Below are positions 22,108-32,224 of a stretch of 64,000 bases of DNA, in pieces. The number at the start of each line of letters is the position of its first letter. Position 1 is the first letter of the stretch. The notes beneath the pieces were generated by a model. That model saw only the letters and a list, made by a program, of their open reading frames with translations. It was not told the origin of the DNA and ran no database searches. The translations under genes were made by a program, and so were the position numbers. The stretch comes from Stagnihabitans tardus. GTDB lineage: Bacteria; Pseudomonadota; Alphaproteobacteria; Rhodobacterales; Rhodobacteraceae. The DNA is taken from positions 62,001-126,000 of the forward strand of contig NZ_JAABNR010000002.1 in the NCBI RefSeq assembly GCF_009925085.1, written 5' to 3'.

Positions 22108-25100
22108 ATGATAAAGGGATTTCTCGATCGGATCTTGGGCAAGGCCCCGGATGCACCCGAGGGGGCGGCAGCGGTTCTGAAGGACTATATGAGCTTCCTT
22201 TCCGCGATCGACTACGGGCTTGCGGGCAAGGCGGTTTCTTATATCCAGACCGGAGAGGGGCGGACGGTGCTGGCCGCGCTTGGGGCGCATCAGGCCAAGA
22301 TCGACGCGGCCGTCCAGGACCTGCGCTATGGCAGGCGCAACAATCAAAGGCTGCCCACGGAGAAGCTGGTTGCCCTGATGGGCCAGGCCGTGGCGCATCC
22401 CGATTGGCTGGTGCGGCTCTGCGAGGTCCTGGTGCCGATCACCCAGTCCGACACGATTCATAGCCTGCGCAGTGCCGAAAAGCTGACACCGACCGTCAAG
22501 GCACTGTGGCTGCACCTGCCCAGCCAATTCGTTCTGCTCCCGGAAGCGGCCAACTGGCTTTCCCTGCCCATGGTGGCCGCTTTGGTCGACCGAATGGGGC
22601 GCCGCGCCGATCTTTTGCAGCTGGTCTTCTCGCATCCCCTGCATGTGACCCTGAACCGCTTCCCGGAGCCGGGGGTGATGAAGTTCCTGCTGACGACCTC
22701 TTTGGAGGAGCTGAAAGAGGCCGAGGCGCGGCTGGATGCCTCGAGCCGGGCCGAGATGTGGCAGACCCTGGGGCGGGTGCAGCTTGCGCTGGAGGAGGCG
22801 GTGCTGGACCATCTCTTCACCCGGCTGGCGGATGGCTCGGCCAAGGTCGCGGCTGCCGCGCGGGGGGCGCTCAGGGGCCAGGATGCGTCACGGATCCTGC
22901 CCAAGGCCCTGGCGCAGCTTGCGGCCCCCAGTGCGGCGCAGCGCAAGGCCGCCGTGCAGCTTCTGGGCGACATGAAGACGCCCGAGGCGCTGGAGGCCCT
23001 GCGTCAGCGCCAGCCGGAAGAGGGCGTCGAGAGCCTCCGCGCCCTGATCGCGCAGTTCCTGGGCACCGCGCCCGGGCTGGCAGAAGTGCAGGCCGCAGCG
23101 CCCGGGCCCTGGGCCGGACCCGTCTCTGAACAGGCGGAAGAGGGGTTCTATCTTTCGGTCAAGGGCGAAAGGGTCGCCCTGCCGCCCGATGTCGTGCTGG
23201 TGGATGACGGAAGCAGCCCCTTTGGCAGGGCGGATGTGGCCGAACTCCGCCGCGCCGAGGACGACTACAACGCCAAGCGCGAGGCAGAGTCCAAGGCCAA
23301 GGGCTGGCGGGTCCATACGCTCAAAACCTCGGCCGAGGTCATCGTCTCGGCCTTCAACGGCGAAAGGCTTGCGCGCGGTGTCCAGGTGCCCACGCGGCAT
23401 CCGGTCTATCATCCCTGGATGACCCGCGCCATGGCGCAGATCACCCCGGCCCGGCGGCTGGCCCTGGTGATGCAGGGGCAGATGGCCGTGACCCATGTCG
23501 TCATGCCCTGGAGCGATTATCCGCTGAAGACCTGGCTGCATGAGGCCATGGAGGCGGGCGAGTTCGACCTGCGCACCCTTTTGCGGGCGGCGGCGGCCGC
23601 AGGCTTGACGCCCGCCTATTCCGGGCCCTATGCCCGCAAGCCCGTGCCCTCCTCGGGCAGCTACGAGGCGCGCTTTCTGCAAGGCGTGATCGAGGGGGCG
23701 GATTACACGGCCCCGCTGCGCGAGCTCGCGCCCCATGTCGTCTGGCCCCTGCTGGCCCAGAACCTGACCCTGCTGGTGCGCTACCTGCCGCCGCAGGCCG
23801 ATGCCGTGGGCCCGATGATCGAGGTCCTGGCGCTTTTGGCGACCCTCCCGGCGCTGCCGCAATCCATGGTCAACCCGGTGCTTTACGCGGCCTTCTCAGA
23901 GAGCGCCCAGGTTCGCAAGGCGGCCGCAGCGCTGTTGCGCGATGTCCCGGGGCTGGAGGCCGCCCTGACCGCGGCCCTCGCCGACAAGCGCCAGACCGTG
24001 CGGGCCTCTGCCGCGCAGATGATGGCGGCGCAGAGGCTGACCGCAGGGCTGCCCGCCCTGACCAAGGCGCTGAAGGCGGAAAAGTCGGAGACCGCCCGCG
24101 CCGCGCTGATCGGCGCGGTGAAGGCCTTGGGGGGCGACGTCAGCCCCTGGATCGGCCCCGAAGCCCTGACCGCCGAGGCCAAGGCCCTGATTACCAAGCT
24201 GAAACCCCTGCCCGAGGGGATCTTGCACTTTTCCACCCTGGCCGGCCTCTGCTGGGCCGATGGCTCCCCCATAGCGCCCGAGGTCCCCGAGGCCTGGGCG
24301 CGGCTGGCCGTCAAGCTGAAGACCCCCGGCGAAGGCGCGCTTTTCGGCCTTTACCTCGACCAGCTCCGCCCCTCTGACGCCGCCGCCTTCTCGCTTTGGG
24401 TGCTGCAAAGCTGGATCAGCTTCGACACGGCCAAGGGGTCGCAGGCTGACCATGTGGCGAAGATGATGGTGCAGGCCAAGCAGATGCAGGGCCATAGCTA
24501 TTATGCCAAGTATTCCCTGGAAGAGCTTCTGGCCATGGTCCTGGCCTATAGCCCCAACCCCTATTTGAACTCGGGCGCGGACACCAAGGGGCTCCTGGCC
24601 CTCGCGATCCGCGCCACCCAGGGCGTTCAGGTCGCCACCGCCTATCTGAAGGACCACGGCAAGCGCGTCTCGCAGGCCAAGGCGCTGGTGGATATGCTGG
24701 CCGCCATGGGCACGCCCGAGGCCGTGCAGCGCCTCGTCGCCACTTCCACCCGCTTCAAGCAGAAGTCGGTCCGCGAACATGCCGAGGCGCAGGTGACCGC
24801 GCTGGCCGAGGCGCGGGGCTGGACGGGCGACACCCTGGCCGACCGCTCCGTCCCCTCGGGCGGGCTGGAGGAGGGCGGCCAGACCGTGCTGGAGGTGGGC
24901 GAGGCCGCCAAGCCCTATGCCCTGCGCCTGGGCTCCGACCTGAAACTGCGGCTTTTCAACCCCGAGGGGCGCGAGGTCCAGTCGCTCCCCCCCGGCACGG
25001 ATGAGACCACCAAGGAGGCCAAGGCCCAGCTTTCCGCCGCCAAGGCCGCCGTGAAGGCCGCCGTCACCCAGCAAAGCGCCAGGCTCTACGAGGCGATGCT

Positions 25101-25782
25101 GGCCGGGCGGCGCTGGCGGCTGGAGGATTGGCAGGCCGACCTCCTGGGCCATCCGATCCTGTCGCGGCTGGTGGAAAGCGTGATCTGGCGGCTGTTGGAC
25201 GAAGAGGGCGCGGTCGTGGCCTCTTTCCGCCCCACGGCGGAGGGCGATTTCCTCGACGCCCAGGGCGATGATGTGGCACTAACGGGCGCTTTCGTCGACC
25301 TCCTCCACGGCTCGCATCTTCAGGACACCGGCCCCTGGCTCCAGCACCTGAAGGACTTCGAGATCACCCCGCTCTTCGCCCAGCTGTCCCGCCCCGTCAT
25401 GCGCCCGACGACCGAGACCGACCGGATCGAGACCCGCCACGGCTGGGTCATCGACGGCCTGCGCCTGCGGTCAGAGGCCGCGAAATACGGCTATGACAAG
25501 GGCGCAACCGAGGACGGCGGGGTCTTCATGACCTATATCAAGCGCTTCCCCTCGGTCGGCATCGACGCGGTGATCGAGTTCTCGGGCTCCGAGGCTTCGG
25601 TGACGGCGGACCCGGTCGCCCTTCAGGCGCTCTATTTCGTGGGCAATTCCAAGAACCGCTATCGGCCCCTGACCCTGGCCAAGGTGCCGCCGCTCTTGCT
25701 CTCGGAATGCTGGTGCGACCTGCATGACATCGCGCTGAAAGGGGCCCATGACCCGGATTGGCAAAAGAGGATGAAGTTCTGA
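22108..25782 (+). CDS. DUF4132 / MolR-YehI-like large HEAT-repeat protein
   Basis: A 1224-residue cytoplasmic protein with no signal or membrane segment. The middle is rich in alpha-helical HEAT-like repeats, for example around residues 590-700 (VLYAAFSESAQVRKAAAALLRDVPG). The C-terminal 230 residues form the DUF4132 domain (HPILSRLVESVIW, DFEITPLFAQLSRP, and the cysteine-containing end LLLSECWCDLHDIALKG). Length and domain match E. coli YehI. Biochemical function is unknown. It is the first of five genes joined by overlaps (TGATG with the next), so it is probably a scaffold or substrate adaptor for the AAA+/VWA machine that follows. Confidence 0.85.
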   Translation: MIKGFLDRILGKAPDAPEGAAAVLKDYMSFLSAIDYGLAGKAVSYIQTGEGRTVLAALGAHQAKIDAAVQDLRYGRRNNQRLPTEKLVALMGQAVAHPDWLVRLCEVLVPITQSDTIHSLRSAEKLTPTVKALWLHLPSQFVLLPEAANWLSLPMVAALVDRMGRRADLLQLVFSHPLHVTLNRFPEPGVMKFLLTTSLEELKEAEARLDASSRAEMWQTLGRVQLALEEAVLDHLFTRLADGSAKVAAAARGALRGQDASRILPKALAQLAAPSAAQRKAAVQLLGDMKTPEALEALRQRQPEEGVESLRALIAQFLGTAPGLAEVQAAAPGPWAGPVSEQAEEGFYLSVKGERVALPPDVVLVDDGSSPFGRADVAELRRAEDDYNAKREAESKAKGWRVHTLKTSAEVIVSAFNGERLARGVQVPTRHPVYHPWMTRAMAQITPARRLALVMQGQMAVTHVVMPWSDYPLKTWLHEAMEAGEFDLRTLLRAAAAAGLTPAYSGPYARKPVPSSGSYEARFLQGVIEGADYTAPLRELAPHVVWPLLAQNLTLLVRYLPPQADAVGPMIEVLALLATLPALPQSMVNPVLYAAFSESAQVRKAAAALLRDVPGLEAALTAALADKRQTVRASAAQMMAAQRLTAGLPALTKALKAEKSETARAALIGAVKALGGDVSPWIGPEALTAEAKALITKLKPLPEGILHFSTLAGLCWADGSPIAPEVPEAWARLAVKLKTPGEGALFGLYLDQLRPSDAAAFSLWVLQSWISFDTAKGSQADHVAKMMVQAKQMQGHSYYAKYSLEELLAMVLAYSPNPYLNSGADTKGLLALAIRATQGVQVATAYLKDHGKRVSQAKALVDMLAAMGTPEAVQRLVATSTRFKQKSVREHAEAQVTALAEARGWTGDTLADRSVPSGGLEEGGQTVLEVGEAAKPYALRLGSDLKLRLFNPEGREVQSLPPGTDETTKEAKAQLSAAKAAVKAAVTQQSARLYEAMLAGRRWRLEDWQADLLGHPILSRLVESVIWRLLDEEGAVVASFRPTAEGDFLDAQGDDVALTGAFVDLLHGSHLQDTGPWLQHLKDFEITPLFAQLSRPVMRPTTETDRIETRHGWVIDGLRLRSEAAKYGYDKGATEDGGVFMTYIKRFPSVGIDAVIEFSGSEASVTADPVALQALYFVGNSKNRYRPLTLAKVPPLLLSECWCDLHDIALKGAHDPDWQKRMKF

Positions 25783-26864
25783 TGTCCGACGCCCTGCGCC
25801 TGCCTGCCGAAGTCATCCATGCGGCGGAACTCTCCGCCCTGGCCGCCGAGCCCGGACCGCGCCCCCCGGGTTGGCGCCTGACGCCCCAAGCGGTGCGGCG
25901 CTTCATCTGCGGCGGCTCTGCGCCGAAATTCGTGGGCGATCCGGGGCTGGTGGACCGCTCCATCGTCAGCCTGATGGGCCGTCAGGGGCTGATGCTGGTG
26001 GGCGAGCCCGGGACGGCGAAGTCGCTTCTGTCGGAACTTCTCGCCGCCGCGATCTCGGGCCGGTCCACGGCCGTAGTCCAGGGCTCTGCCGGGATCATCG
26101 AGGATCACCTGCGCTATGGCTGGAACTATGCGCTGCTTCTGGCGCAGGGGCCGACACCGCAGGCGCTCGTGCCCTCCCCGGTCCTTTCCGCCATGAAGGC
26201 GGGCCAGATCGTGCGGATCGAAGAGCTCTCCCGCTGCGCCCCCGAGGTGCAGGATGTGCTGATCTCGGTCCTATCGGAAAAGGTGCTGACCGTCCCGGAA
26301 CTGGGCGAGGATCACGAGATCCGCGCGCGGCCCGGCTTCAACGTGATCGCCACGGCGAACCTGCGGGACCGGGGGGTGCATGAGATGTCCTCGGCCCTGA
26401 AACGCCGCTTCAACTTCGAGACCGTAACTGCGATTTCCGACCCCGTGGCGGAGGCCGCGCTGGTCGCCCGGCAACTGGCCGAGCGGATGGCTGACCACCC
26501 CGGCGCGGCCCCGGCGCCCTTGGATGTCATCGAGCTTCTGGTCACCGTCTTCCGCGACCTGCGGACCGGGCGGCTGGCCGATGGCACGGCGGTGGCCAGC
26601 CCCAAGGCGGTGATGTCCACCGCCGAAAGCGTCAACGTCGCCCATGCCGCGCTGTTGGATGCCACCTATCTGAACCCCGGCCCTTTGGGCGGCCAGCATA
26701 TCGCGGCCCAGGTCCAGGGCGTGGTCTTCAAGGACGACCCCGAAGACGCCCGCAAGTTCCGCGCCTATGTCGATGTGGTGGCCCGCGATCGTGGCGGCCG
26801 ATCGGCGCTCTGGCGCGACTTCCACCGCGCGGCGGCGGCGGCCCTGGCGAAATCCGGTGTCTGA
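25782..26864 (+). CDS. MoxR-type AAA+ ATPase (YehL-like)
   Basis: A 360-residue AAA+ ATPase. Walker A GEPGTAKS is at residues 74-81 and the Walker B region VRIEEL near residue 147. Sensor 1 (NVIATANLRDRG) is followed by an arginine-finger region (ALKRRFNFE). MoxR ATPases typically work with a VWA-domain partner to remodel or metallate a target complex; the VWA gene is two genes downstream. It overlaps the DUF4132 stop by one base and the DUF5682 start by eight bases. Size matches E. coli YehL. Confidence 0.92.
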   Translation: MSDALRLPAEVIHAAELSALAAEPGPRPPGWRLTPQAVRRFICGGSAPKFVGDPGLVDRSIVSLMGRQGLMLVGEPGTAKSLLSELLAAAISGRSTAVVQGSAGIIEDHLRYGWNYALLLAQGPTPQALVPSPVLSAMKAGQIVRIEELSRCAPEVQDVLISVLSEKVLTVPELGEDHEIRARPGFNVIATANLRDRGVHEMSSALKRRFNFETVTAISDPVAEAALVARQLAERMADHPGAAPAPLDVIELLVTVFRDLRTGRLADGTAVASPKAVMSTAESVNVAHAALLDATYLNPGPLGGQHIAAQVQGVVFKDDPEDARKFRAYVDVVARDRGGRSALWRDFHRAAAAALAKSGV

Positions 26865-29148
26865 CTTCCTGACCCGCGACCAGGCGCTTGCCGCGCTCTT
26901 TGGCGGGCCCGTGGCCTTTGCGCCGATCCGCCACCACTCCCCCGCCTGCGCCCATGCTTTGCGGTCGCTGATCCGCGCGCATCGGCCAGAGGTCATCTGC
27001 ATCGAGGCCCCAACGCCCCTCTCCCCGCACATCCCCCACCTGACCGAACCCGACCTGGTCTTTCCCGTGGCCCTCTTGACCCTGCACCAGGGTCGGCAAA
27101 GCTATTACCCCCTCTCCGCCCATTCCCCCGAGACCATCGCCCTGCAAGAGGCCAAGGCTCTGGGTGCCGAGGTCTGGTTCATCGACCTCCCCTCCCGGCT
27201 TGACGAGGCCCCCCGTGGCCCCGACGAGACGCCCTTCTCCGCTTCGGCCTTCGTGGCCGAGACCTGCGCGCGGCTGGGACTGCGCGACGGGGCCGAGCTT
27301 TGGGATCACCTCTTCGAGGCGCGGATGGGAACCCAGGACTGGCAGGGCTTCTTCGCCGATGTCCTGACCTATTGCGCGGCCCTGCGGCATGGAACCGATC
27401 TGACGGCCGATGACACTCTCCCGCGTGAGGCCGAGATGCGCCGCCACATCGCCCGGCTGAATGGGCGCCGCGCCGTGGTGGTGACCGGGGGCTTTCACAC
27501 CCCCGCGCTGTTTCAGGGCGACCCGGGCAAGCCGCCGCCCGCTGACCCTTCCGAAAGCTACCTCATCGCCTATGGCGAAGAGGCGCTGGACGCGCTCTCC
27601 GGCTATGGTGCGGGCCTGCGCCATCCCGCCTGGTATGCGCGGCTGTGGCAGGCCGCCCAAGACGGCCCCCCCGACTGGCTGGCCCTTGCCCGCGACCTGA
27701 TCACCGATTTCACGGCCGCCCAGGCCGCCCAGGGCCACCGCATCGCCGTCCCCCAACAGGTCGAGACCCTGACGCTCGCCGCAGGCCTCGCCAGCCTGCG
27801 GGGCAGGGGGGCGGTGCTCCTCCCCGACCTCTCGGATGCGCTCCGCTCTGCCCTCGTCAAGGGCGAGACCGGCCCCGCCGAGCCCTGGACCCGCGCCTTC
27901 CTGCGCTTTCTGAACGGAACCGCCTTTGGCCGGGCGCCTGCCTCGGCGGGCCAGCCGCCGCTTCTGCGCGATGCCCGCGCCCGCGCCCAGGCCGCGCGCT
28001 TCGACCTGTCCACCTCGGTCCGCCGCCCGCGCAAGCTGGACTTCCGCCGCAAGCCTTCCCATGCGACCGCCTCGCAATTCTGCCACCAGATGGCGATCCT
28101 CGACGCCGGTTTCGCCCAACTGACCGCCGGGCCGGACCTGGTCGGCGGCGTGAACCTGGGTCTCCTCTTCGAGGACTGGGACTGCGCCTGGACCCCCTTC
28201 GTCGAGGGCCGCCTGATCGAGGCCGCCCGCCTTGGCGCCGACCTGCCCTCGGCGGCACTGGCGCGGCTTTTGCGGGATGCCCAGGCGCTGGGGACCTCGG
28301 GGCAGGGCCAGGACCTCGGCGCCCTCGTGACCCTGATGCTGCGCGGCTGGCGGGCGGGGCTGGGCCCGCGCTTGGGCCCCCTGGTCGCCGAGGTGACAGG
28401 GCTTGCCGCCCGCAGCCCCGACCTTGGCGCCCTGGCCCGGACGCTCCGCCGCCTGACCGCCGTGGCCGCGCCCACCGACCCGCTGCATGACCCCCAGGCC
28501 CCCGACCTCGGCCCGCTTTTGGCCGTGGTCTTCGACCGCATGATCCTCTTGACCGAAGACCTGCCCCAAAGCCCCGACGAGGCCTTGCCCGAGGCCATCG
28601 CGGGCCTGAGCCTTCTTTTCGCGGCCACCCTGACCGATCCCCGCTTTGACCGCCCCCGCCTGCAAGGCGCCCTTCACCGGGTGGCCGCCGATCCGCGCGC
28701 CTCGGGCCTCCTCCTCGGCGCCGTGGCGGGGCTTCTGACCCGGTCGGGCCAGATGGAGCCCGCGGCCTGCGCCCTCCTCCTGCAAGGCCAGATCGGTGCC
28801 CGAACGCTAAAGCCCCAGGACCGCGCCGCGCTGTTGGACGGCTTCCTGCGCACGGCCCCCATGCTCTTGTGGCAGGACCAGGCCATCCTGGCCGCCTGCC
28901 ACGCCGCGCTTTCCGCCCTTTCGGACGAGGACTTCACCACGCTCCTCCCCGCCCTGCGGCTCAGCCTCTCGCAGCTGAACCCGCATGAGACCGACCGCCT
29001 GGCCGCCGAGGTCACGCGGCTGACCGGTCAGGCCGCCGCCCCGCGCACCAGCCTGACCGAGGCCGACCTGGCGCGCGGCCTGGCCTTGGACCGCGCCTTG
29101 GCCGCGCAACTCGCGGCCGATGGGCTCGCCCATTGGGGAGAGGCCTGA
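26857..29148 (+). CDS. DUF5682 family protein (YehM-like)
   Basis: A 763-residue cytoplasmic protein starting at GTG inside the preceding gene. Family landmarks are IRHHSPACAHALR near residue 24, EAPTPLSPHIPHL, and VVTGGFHTPAL near residue 210. The conserved His/Glu arrangement resembles EreA/TraB-type hydrolase folds, which suggests but does not prove an enzymatic activity. The C-terminal half is helical with a leucine/alanine-rich composition. It lies between the MoxR and VWA genes with overlaps on both sides (8 bases and TGATG), as in the E. coli yehM position. Other starts upstream would extend into the ATPase gene. Confidence 0.85.
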   Translation: MSDFLTRDQALAALFGGPVAFAPIRHHSPACAHALRSLIRAHRPEVICIEAPTPLSPHIPHLTEPDLVFPVALLTLHQGRQSYYPLSAHSPETIALQEAKALGAEVWFIDLPSRLDEAPRGPDETPFSASAFVAETCARLGLRDGAELWDHLFEARMGTQDWQGFFADVLTYCAALRHGTDLTADDTLPREAEMRRHIARLNGRRAVVVTGGFHTPALFQGDPGKPPPADPSESYLIAYGEEALDALSGYGAGLRHPAWYARLWQAAQDGPPDWLALARDLITDFTAAQAAQGHRIAVPQQVETLTLAAGLASLRGRGAVLLPDLSDALRSALVKGETGPAEPWTRAFLRFLNGTAFGRAPASAGQPPLLRDARARAQAARFDLSTSVRRPRKLDFRRKPSHATASQFCHQMAILDAGFAQLTAGPDLVGGVNLGLLFEDWDCAWTPFVEGRLIEAARLGADLPSAALARLLRDAQALGTSGQGQDLGALVTLMLRGWRAGLGPRLGPLVAEVTGLAARSPDLGALARTLRRLTAVAAPTDPLHDPQAPDLGPLLAVVFDRMILLTEDLPQSPDEALPEAIAGLSLLFAATLTDPRFDRPRLQGALHRVAADPRASGLLLGAVAGLLTRSGQMEPAACALLLQGQIGARTLKPQDRAALLDGFLRTAPMLLWQDQAILAACHAALSALSDEDFTTLLPALRLSLSQLNPHETDRLAAEVTRLTGQAAAPRTSLTEADLARGLALDRALAAQLAADGLAHWGEA

Positions 29149-30242
29149 TGCGCAGCCCTGCCGAGAAATGGCGGCTGATCCTGGGTCGCTATGCCGATCG
29201 CCAGATGGGCCAGGTCCTTTCAGGCCAGGACGCCCGCCGCGATGCCGCCCTGGATTTCCTTTACGGCCGGGAATATGGCGCCAGGGGGATCGAGGGCCAT
29301 CCCGACCAGATGCGCGCCATCGACTGGCTCTCCGAGGCGGAGACGCTGTTCCCGGCGCCCGTCTTCGAGCACCTGCGCGCCGAGGGGCTGTCGCGCTATA
29401 ACCTGACCGAGCTTCTGTCCGACGCCACGCCCTGGGAGAGCCTTCCCGCGAGCCCCGGCCTGCTGCGGGCGCTGCTTTCGGCGCAGGGCAGGGCGAACCC
29501 GGCGCTTCGCGCGCAGCTGCGCCGGATCGCGGAATGGGTCGTTGCCGAGTTGACCGCCAAGCTGCGGGCGGTTCTCTTGCAAAGCCTCTCGGGCCGCAGG
29601 AACCGCCGCGCCCGCAGCCCCATGGCCGCCTCGGCCAATTTCGACGCGGCCCGGACGATCCGGGCCAACCTGTCGCATTGGGACCCCGAGCGCGCCGCCC
29701 TGGTGATCGAGCGCCTGCGCTTCTTTGCCCGGCAGAAGCGGCACCTCGATTGGACGGTGGTGCTTTGCGTCGACCAATCGGGCTCGATGACCGACAGCCT
29801 GATCTTTTCGGCGCTGATGGCGGCAGTTCTGGCCGGGCTGCCGGGAGTGCGGGTCAAGATGGTGCTGTTTGACACCCGCGTCGTCGATGTCACCGATCAG
29901 CTTGACGACCCGCTGGAGCTGCTTCTCTCCGTCCAGCTGGGCGGCGGCACCGATATCGCCAAGGCCATGACCTATTGCGAGGGGCTGGTGCAGAGCCCCA
30001 GCCGCACGGTCCTGGCCCTGGTCTCGGACTTTTGCGAGGGCGGCAGTCCGCGCGCCATGCTGGCCTCGGTGGCGCGGATGGCCGAGGCGCGGGTGCGGCT
30101 GATCGGGATTGCGGCGCTGGATGACACGGGCAAGGCGGCCTATGACCGCGACATGGGCGCAAGCCTGGCCGAGATGGGGATGGAGGTCGCCGCCCTGACC
30201 CCCGCCCTGTTCGCCGATTGGCTGGCGGGGGTGGTCGGATGA
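29148..30242 (+). CDS. VWA-domain protein (YehP-like)
   Basis: A 364-residue protein with a helical N-terminal half and a von Willebrand factor A domain. The metal-ion-dependent adhesion site DQSGS is at residues 209-213, with the supporting GGGTDIAKAM and VSDFCEGG motifs downstream. All three MIDAS loops are intact. It is probably the adaptor through which the MoxR ATPase acts. It overlaps the DUF5682 stop (TGATG) and shares ATGA with the SWIM gene. Size is close to E. coli YehP. Confidence 0.92.
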   Translation: MRSPAEKWRLILGRYADRQMGQVLSGQDARRDAALDFLYGREYGARGIEGHPDQMRAIDWLSEAETLFPAPVFEHLRAEGLSRYNLTELLSDATPWESLPASPGLLRALLSAQGRANPALRAQLRRIAEWVVAELTAKLRAVLLQSLSGRRNRRARSPMAASANFDAARTIRANLSHWDPERAALVIERLRFFARQKRHLDWTVVLCVDQSGSMTDSLIFSALMAAVLAGLPGVRVKMVLFDTRVVDVTDQLDDPLELLLSVQLGGGTDIAKAMTYCEGLVQSPSRTVLALVSDFCEGGSPRAMLASVARMAEARVRLIGIAALDDTGKAAYDRDMGASLAEMGMEVAALTPALFADWLAGVVG

Positions 30243-32002
30243 GCTGGATTGCTGCTTGCAGCGACGAGGTCCTGGCCGCCGCCGCCTCGAAGGGGCTGGT
30301 CCTTCGGGCGGCCAAGGACGTCGAGGCGGGGCGGGTCGAAGGCTCGCAGGTCGAGGGCCAGACCGTGACGCTGGGCGCCAGCCTTGCCGCCAGTCGCTGC
30401 ACCTGTCCGGCGGTGGGGCTCTGCCGCCATATCCTGGCGGTGGTGATCCAGGAACGGGGGCGGGCCGGGCAAGAGGCGCAGGAAGCCGGGGAGCCAGAGG
30501 CTCTGCCGGATCTTGAAGAGCTTCGGGCCTTTGCCGGGGCCGATTGGGCCGAGGCGGTGGAGCTGGCCCGCAAGGGGGGCGTCCTTGCGGGTCAGACCGT
30601 GATGCTTGCACCGGGCGACAGCGTGACCTTTCCCCGGGGCAGGCCCCTGAAAGAGGCGGTCCACAAGGGCCCGCGCCGCGCCAGGCTGGCGATCGTGGCG
30701 GCGGGGCTGGTCCGGGCGGGCCATCCCCTGCCCGAGGCGGCGGAGGTCGCTCCCGAGCCCCTGGTCACCCTTTCGATGCTGGACGCGGTGCAAGAGGCCC
30801 TGGCCGCCGCCACCCTGGCCCTGGCCGCCGGGAACCTTGCCCTGGCGCGGGACAGGCTTTTCACCATGGCGCTTGCGGCAAGGATCGAGGCCACGCCGCG
30901 CCTCGCTTCGGACCTGCGCAGCCTTGCGGCCCGGCTGGACCCCGATGCCATGCGCCAGGCGGGCTTCACGCCGACCGAGGCCCTGGCCGCGTTGGCCCGC
31001 GCCCATGCCCTGGCCGAGGCGCTGCGGCGCTTTCCCGATGACCCCGCCCTGACCGGGACGCTCTCGCGCCGGTTCACGGGGCAGGGCCCGCGCGAGATGG
31101 GGTTTGTGGGGGTCGAGACCTGGCGCAATGCCTCGGGCGCGCGGGGGGTCAGCTTCTACCTGGTCGACCTTGGCAGCGGGCAGGTCCACCAGGCCACCGA
31201 TGCGCGCGGGGCCGGGGGGGAGCCCGGCTTCTCGCCCGAGACGGCCTTGCGGCAGACGCTGTGGGGCTTGGGCGACGGCCTGGGGCTGATGGGCAAGCGC
31301 CTGCATTTTCCCGATGCGGCCCTGGCGCCGGACGGGGGTCTGGCCCTGTCGCAGAGGGCCGAGTTGCGGGGTGGGCTGGCGCCGGAAGCGCTGTCTCCGC
31401 TGTCGGACTGGTCGGGGTTGGGCGCGCTGTTGCGCGCGGGGCGCGGGGCGGGGTTGCGGCGGCGGGCGGGGCCGATTGCGGTCCTCCTGGCGCCGAAGCA
31501 CTGCGAGACCCCGGCTTTCGACCCTTTCTCCCAAGAGACCCATATGGCGGTCAGCGACGGGGCGCATGGGTTGGACCTGACCTTGCCGCAGGGGCTGAAC
31601 GGGCAGGAGAGCCGGATCGCCGCGGTCCTGGTGGCGCTGGAGAGCGCGACGCGGGGTCGGCTTCTGTCGGTCTGGATCAAGGGCCATGCTGCGCCTTTTG
31701 CCATGGGTCACCAGCCCTTGCCGATCCTGGCCGGTTGGCGGGCGCTTTTGACGCGGGTGCTGCGGCCGGTCGTGGCGCCGCCCGAAGCGGATCGCGGCAT
31801 CGCGCTCTTGGCGGGGCGGGCGACGGAGCGGGCCCTCGTCCAGCTCTCGGCGCCCGGGACGGAGTTTTCCCCCGACCTGGTCGCCGAGGCGGAGGCAAGG
31901 GGCCTCGCGCTGGCGGCGCGGCTGATGCGGGCCTGCGATGGCGGGACGGGTCCTGCCCTGCGACTGGTTGCGGCGCTTGAGACCCTGGGCGAGCTGGACT
32001 GA
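30239..32002 (+). CDS. SWIM zinc-finger domain protein (YehQ-like)
   Basis: A 587-residue protein with a SWIM zinc finger near the N-terminus (C54, C56, C62, H64 in CTCPAVGLCRH). The rest is helical, with an alanine- and leucine-rich tail, and has no recognisable catalytic motif. SWIM fingers bind protein or nucleic acid. It is the last gene of the five-gene set and matches E. coli YehQ in type, order and approximate length. The ATG overlaps the VWA stop. It is followed by a 222-bp gene-free stretch with short repeats and a hairpin. Confidence 0.9.
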   Translation: MSWIAACSDEVLAAAASKGLVLRAAKDVEAGRVEGSQVEGQTVTLGASLAASRCTCPAVGLCRHILAVVIQERGRAGQEAQEAGEPEALPDLEELRAFAGADWAEAVELARKGGVLAGQTVMLAPGDSVTFPRGRPLKEAVHKGPRRARLAIVAAGLVRAGHPLPEAAEVAPEPLVTLSMLDAVQEALAAATLALAAGNLALARDRLFTMALAARIEATPRLASDLRSLAARLDPDAMRQAGFTPTEALAALARAHALAEALRRFPDDPALTGTLSRRFTGQGPREMGFVGVETWRNASGARGVSFYLVDLGSGQVHQATDARGAGGEPGFSPETALRQTLWGLGDGLGLMGKRLHFPDAALAPDGGLALSQRAELRGGLAPEALSPLSDWSGLGALLRAGRGAGLRRRAGPIAVLLAPKHCETPAFDPFSQETHMAVSDGAHGLDLTLPQGLNGQESRIAAVLVALESATRGRLLSVWIKGHAAPFAMGHQPLPILAGWRALLTRVLRPVVAPPEADRGIALLAGRATERALVQLSAPGTEFSPDLVAEAEARGLALAARLMRACDGGTGPALRLVAALETLGELD

Positions 32003-32121: not shown

Positions 32122-32140
32122 GGGCGGGGTCTCCCCGCCC
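32122..32140. terminator. Hairpin between the SWIM gene and cycA
   Basis: Perfect 8-bp stem GGGCGGGG / CCCCGCCC with loop TCT, followed on the plus strand by a T-rich stretch (TGTCGTGTCTTTTCC). It lies between the convergent five-gene set and the photosynthesis superoperon and probably terminates transcription from the plus strand, possibly both. Confidence 0.7.
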
Positions 32141-32224
32141 TGTCGTGTCTTTTCCGTTCGGGGGCCTCCGGAGGTCCGGGGGAACAGGGCGCAGTTCGGC
32201 CCGGATCGGCCCCTTGACCGGGGC

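Follow-up and report, generated by a model that had tools for sequence, protein, structure and literature searches.

The window analysed here, a 64,000-nucleotide stretch of Stagnihabitans tardus DNA (contig NZ_JAABNR010000002.1, positions 62,001 to 126,000), carries at 22108-32002 five overlapping plus-strand genes that we read as encoding one multi-protein machine, in which a MoxR-family ATPase of the YehL class and a VWA protein would remodel or activate the DUF5682 protein of the same operon; we give this reading a probability of about one half. The wider proposal, that such loci represent a widespread and undescribed five-part machine with two branches, in which the MoxR/VWA motor would activate a TraB/ChaN-fold enzyme of its own, is made more tentatively. 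The set itself is already known as an uncharacterised operon of Escherichia coli, and YehL is already a named subfamily of the MoxR AAA+ ATPases (PMC3893208). In the literature searched, which left most subscription journals and preprints outside, we found neither an experimental test of the five-gene set nor a description of its two branches. The five genes are:

22108..25782, plus strand: DUF4132/HEAT-repeat protein, yehI-like, 1224 amino acids (aa) (Pfam DUF4132 and HEAT_2; BLASTP to YehI, 6e-23)
25782..26864, plus strand: MoxR-family AAA+ ATPase, YehL-like, 360 aa (Pfam AAA_5; 47% identity to YehL; Walker A/B invariant)
26857..29148, plus strand: DUF5682 protein, yehM-like, 763 aa, GTG start (Pfam, residue conservation, AlphaFold)
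29148..30242, plus strand: VWA protein (CoxE-like), yehP-like, 364 aa (Pfam VWA_CoxE; 43% identity to YehP; MIDAS intact)
30239..32002, plus strand: SWIM zinc-finger protein with one finger, yehQ-like, 587 aa (Pfam SWIM; BLASTP to YehQ mainly over the finger)

The five genes fill the interval with successive overlaps of 1, 8, 1 and 4 bases, in agreement with the original prediction, made from the sequence alone, of genes joined by overlaps of one to eight bases. A Pfam search of each protein likewise returned the domain set that had been named (E-values of 3.6e-27 for DUF4132, 1.2e-33 for AAA_5, 5.3e-97 for DUF5682 and 3.1e-52 for VWA_CoxE; for SWIM, 1.3e-4 and 21.8 bits against a cut-off of 19.6), and the gene at 22108-25782 is the single DUF4132 match in the genome. 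The claim that the Walker A, MIDAS and SWIM residues are intact was confirmed by the alignments, in which Walker A G74 and P76-K80 together with E147/E148 are present in 75/75 MoxR sequences, the MIDAS residues D209, S211, S213, T268 and D294 are kept in 77/77 VWA sequences, and C54, C56, C62 and H64 of the SWIM finger are kept in 15/15 aligned SWIM proteins. Two terminator-like sites were observed against 6.1 expected, and the site at 32123-32144 was therefore not counted as evidence.

To survey gene neighbourhoods, a four-member DUF5682 alignment was scanned against species genomes, which gave at least 573 relatives, and the best 80 of these were annotated with home-made profiles along with the loci of the window, of E. 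coli and of other whole genomes. The resulting 100 DUF5682 loci (one duplicate contig was dropped) include 66 with at least 5.5 kb of flank on both sides; the sample is anchored on DUF5682 and says nothing on how often DUF4132 or MoxR occur elsewhere. MoxR, VWA and SWIM proteins together with DUF4132 or DUF5691 were found in 62 of the 66 full-flank loci (49 of 51 in the species-genome scan subset), and the helical-repeat partner of these 62 is DUF4132 in 18, DUF5691 in 40 and both in 4. The four exceptions are a locus in which SWIM was not found (L063), one with no partners (L055), a degraded one (L150) and one whose stretch ends inside the VWA gene (L151). The five genes thus form a conserved genetic unit, and the original idea of one dedicated machine, which hung on the families occurring together, is supported. 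When neighbours were clustered, only the SWIM/DUF5691 pair formed a widespread cluster, spanning 40 loci against 12 for the next one. In a Myxococcales assembly (L014, 1401-5195) DUF5682 and VWA are encoded in one open reading frame (ORF), a hint that the parts may belong to one physical complex.

The complete loci fall into two types. Type A, to which the window and E. coli belong, runs DUF4132-MoxR-DUF5682-VWA-SWIM, DUF4132 being present once or more and, in Lachnospiraceae, placed at the 3' end; all five of these families occur together in the window. Type B runs SWIM-DUF5691-MoxR-DUF5682-VWA, and Pfam identified DUF5691 in three of its loci. In trees of 86 rows (26 of type A, 55 of type B and 5 unlabelled), the two types separate with a support of 100 for DUF5682, MoxR and VWA alike, the window's core proteins falling in the type A clade in all three. 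Within types, the distances of the core proteins correlate at 0.90-0.96 in type A and 0.87-0.91 in type B; shuffling gave 0.30 at most. The deep split is therefore common to MoxR, VWA and DUF5682, which diverge in parallel, and the two branches are old. Both have the same MoxR, DUF5682 and VWA, and their SWIM proteins are homologous (hhalign E 5.7e-7, probability 92), but type B has its SWIM gene upstream and DUF5691 in place of DUF4132, the latter two being alike at the HEAT level only (probability 41). In a second sample, DUF5682 was found in 13 of 349 genomes of the phylum; over twelve of these 13 and three family genomes, DUF5682 matches of 326-371 bits go with DUF4132 and those of 658-865 bits with DUF5691. 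Two genomes (G308 and G466) carry both types; the operon of G280 is split between the ends of two contigs, and the DUF5691 match lies on a separate contig in G023 and under the cut-off in G032. Some Lachnospiraceae type A operons have extra genes between SWIM and DUF4132, namely an AbiEii-type nucleotidyltransferase, a Schlafen/AlbA protein or a methyltransferase (L010, 10502-11488; L015, 15700-17175; L012, 9900-10520).

The DUF5682 protein is the part that looks most like an enzyme. Residues R25, H26, E50, D110, R177, R190, E191, G211 and H214 are invariant in 83/83 DUF5682 sequences and H27 is kept in 82/83, so that the one-machine idea, which had also leaned on conservation of the His and Glu residues, is not refuted. 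By its layout, the protein has an N-terminal alpha/beta domain, which holds R25, H26, H27, E50, D110 and H214, followed by a C-terminal HEAT-like arm, and its AlphaFold model is confident (pLDDT 90.8). Profile comparison of the N-terminal domain gave probabilities of 72 for TraB and 48 for ChaN, whereas six unrelated families did not exceed 0.4, and in a fold comparison the domain aligned to HopBA1, which shares the ChaN/EreC fold (PMC7979712). The domain thus leans to a TraB/ChaN/EreA fold, though this is not settled; the EreA/TraB-like character first proposed for DUF5682 has moderate support as to fold. H26, H27, E50 and H214 are candidate active-site residues.

In the mechanism that we favour, the MoxR protein would form an ATP-driven hexameric ring on which the VWA protein would dock, its MIDAS holding the client, as proposed for NorQ/NorD. 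MoxR ATPases act on clients together with VWA proteins, and changes in the MIDAS leave NorQ and NorD associated yet their target inactive (PMC9976466). The chief client would be DUF5682, whose alpha/beta domain of TraB/ChaN/EreA type, carried on a HEAT-like arm, would be enzyme-like or ligand-binding; the ring would open, load or activate this protein. By the NorQ/NorD analogy, ring and adaptor are expected to act on DUF5682, the third core protein in all complete loci. The SWIM protein and the large helical-repeat protein (DUF4132, or DUF5691 in type B) would serve as recruitment or sensing scaffolds that set where and when the machine acts; a general intracellular stress response is the likeliest setting. 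An association of the parts is supported by operon context, co-divergence and the L014 fusion; the order of action, the identity of the client and the substrate are suggested by analogy. Two published hints, neither of them a test of the five-gene set, are that a Deinococcus DUF4132 gene rises upon depletion of the repressor DdrO (PMC8533742) and that deletion of E. coli molR1 slows growth together with lepA (PMC4245954).

The chief rival explanation is that of a cofactor machine, in which MoxR and VWA would insert a metal or haem into an enzyme encoded elsewhere and DUF5682 would be a ChaN-like carrier of haem or metal rather than an enzyme. The VWA protein falls in the Pfam family VWA_CoxE, named after a CO-dehydrogenase maturation protein, which counts in its favour, as do the iron insertion by NorQ/NorD (PMC9976466), the haem binding of ChaN, which shares the fold (PMC7979712), and the old molR literature, which is reported to tie the E. 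coli region to molybdate. However, no metalloenzyme family is prominent in the neighbour clustering, most neighbours there not being annotated singly, and the carriers range, by record titles, from gut anaerobes to actinomycetes. We regard a cofactor machine as possible but rather unlikely, and retain the activation of DUF5682 by its own MoxR/VWA pair as the preferred reading.

The operon lies 0.7 kb from the photosynthesis cluster, and its right-hand neighbours include genes of that cluster (PUCC, DUF3623 and rubrerythrin-type), as had been noticed at the outset. It also stands at a synteny breakpoint of the genus, and the two observations together could speak for a chaperone tied to photosynthesis or for a mobile island of recent arrival. 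The relatives argue otherwise. G001, the nearest genus member by its hemA-like gene (92%; a name presumed from the position of the gene in the cluster), is collinear with 32221-64000 of the window, has ribonucleotide reductase, enolase and gatB genes on the left and is without the five-gene system, whereas in five other genus members the hemA end of the cluster abuts DNA homologous to 57.6-63.9 kb of the window, one contig being too short to tell. The photosynthesis block itself (32221-57565) is arranged differently in the genus, and the ribonucleotide reductase gene of the source genome is on another contig. The operon sits at a rearrangement breakpoint, and the photosynthesis genes beside it seem to be a chance neighbour, since relatives keep the cluster without the five-gene system. 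Carriers also include E. coli, Lachnospiraceae and Actinomadura, and the G+C content at third codon positions of the five genes (0.856-0.875, against 0.844 +/- 0.046 in 16 control genes) gives no compositional sign of recent arrival. A link to photosynthesis or a recent island is accordingly very improbable.

Occurrence is patchy. DUF5682 was found in 0/15 other genus members, in 4/121 genomes of the relatives search and, within the family, in 19/394 genomes (19 genera of 393), the source genome being counted in the last two. Among 11 close family relatives (39-53% identity), the nine loci examined all have the five families, one with DUF4132 in pieces, and the four type B loci examined in the family are complete. 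In two family members, at L149 6416-9090 (G022) and L150 4246-7939 (G557), the copies are degraded or split and contain stops or frame breaks; barring assembly errors, they suggest that the system has been lost as well as gained. The window yielded no tRNA, no systematic search for integrases and transposases having been made. Beyond chromosomes, 21 pattern matches in viral contigs yielded none confirmed as a relative, phage records gave 1 match, and 30 plasmid records matched, none covering 80% of the protein and several being chromosome-sized. The suggestion of a mobile unit holds for the patchy occurrence, but recent mobility is disfavoured by a base composition typical of the genome.

This patchiness in genus and family is also what a conflict or anti-phage system would show, and a MoxR and a VWA protein with further proteins do resemble the published MoxR-vWA ternary systems (Kaur et al. 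2020, PMC7159879), which combine MoxR, VWA and a third component; the AbiEii or Schlafen/AlbA gene that can sit between SWIM and DUF4132 in Lachnospiraceae also counts in favour. The variable C-terminal effector domain fused to VWA in those systems is absent here, though, as Pfam gives only VWA-type families for the 364-aa protein, the best one reaching near its C-terminus, and the window's bpMoxR score is 23.9 bits, under the cut-off of 27. The main text of that paper is without 'SWIM', 'yeh' or 'MolR'. Scanned against PADLOC, none of the five proteins matched a family at E <= 0.01. We compared flanks of 23 carrier loci, of which 13 belong to the window's family and the others to groups including Enterobacteriaceae, actinomycetes and Lachnospiraceae, with controls from eight genomes of the window's family, an imperfect match to the flank set, at a threshold of E <= 1e-8: 133 flank proteins (of 136 called ORFs) gave 6 PADLOC families and 13 member matches, and 132 control proteins (of 209 ORFs) gave 10 families and 16 matches, mad3 and mad8 leading in both, so there is no enrichment. 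In E. coli the operon has the character of a common, at times interrupted, chromosomal locus, since 5342 of 5426 complete genomes show some match and 3976, about three quarters, carry 80% or more of it at a single site. The defence response first proposed is thus unsupported by these tests, and a conflict system appears improbable, no relative of the five-gene set having been found in viral contigs either; activation of DUF5682 remains the reading that we prefer.

If the wider proposal is true, most E. coli, and members of about ten phyla judging by record labels, contain a regulated intracellular hydrolase or cofactor-handling system. Recognising the genes as a five-part unit that is conserved in two branches, with DUF5682 residues named for mutation, makes one testable machine out of five genes of 'unknown function', and the operon, by joining MoxR and VWA to the protein presumed to be their client, would offer a convenient model of how such ATPases work.

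Among known systems, NorQ/NorD and RavA/ViaA likewise join a MoxR ATPase to a VWA adaptor with a MIDAS, but the window's VWA protein scores 15.6 bits on the ViaA NCBIfam equivalog model, far from the cut-off of 500. To our knowledge, DUF5682, SWIM and HEAT partners are not part of either pair. The closest counterpart is the E. coli K-12 operon yehI-(yehK)-yehL-yehM-yehP-yehQ, whose genes are annotated by domain only: it has the same five families in the same order, and the likeness in order, domain type and approximate length that was originally predicted is borne out by the lengths (window/E. coli 1224/1210, 360/362, 763/759, 364/378 and 587/614 aa, from yehI to yehQ). BLASTP identity is 47% for MoxR and 43% for VWA, but at most 28% in the other three proteins (DUF5682 28%, SWIM 27%, DUF4132 25%), the good match being limited to the C-terminal third of DUF4132 and to the N-terminal finger of the SWIM protein. 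A second SWIM-like finger is also seen in Lachnospiraceae homologues and is missing in the window and in four aligned actinomycete proteins. E. coli further differs in having yehK and a 684-base gap between yehI and yehL, both absent from the window, in the second C-x-C...C-x-H finger of YehQ, which the window's SWIM protein is without, and in the nearby WGR gene yehF, which we take to be possibly molR1, no WGR domain being found among the window ORFs scanned.

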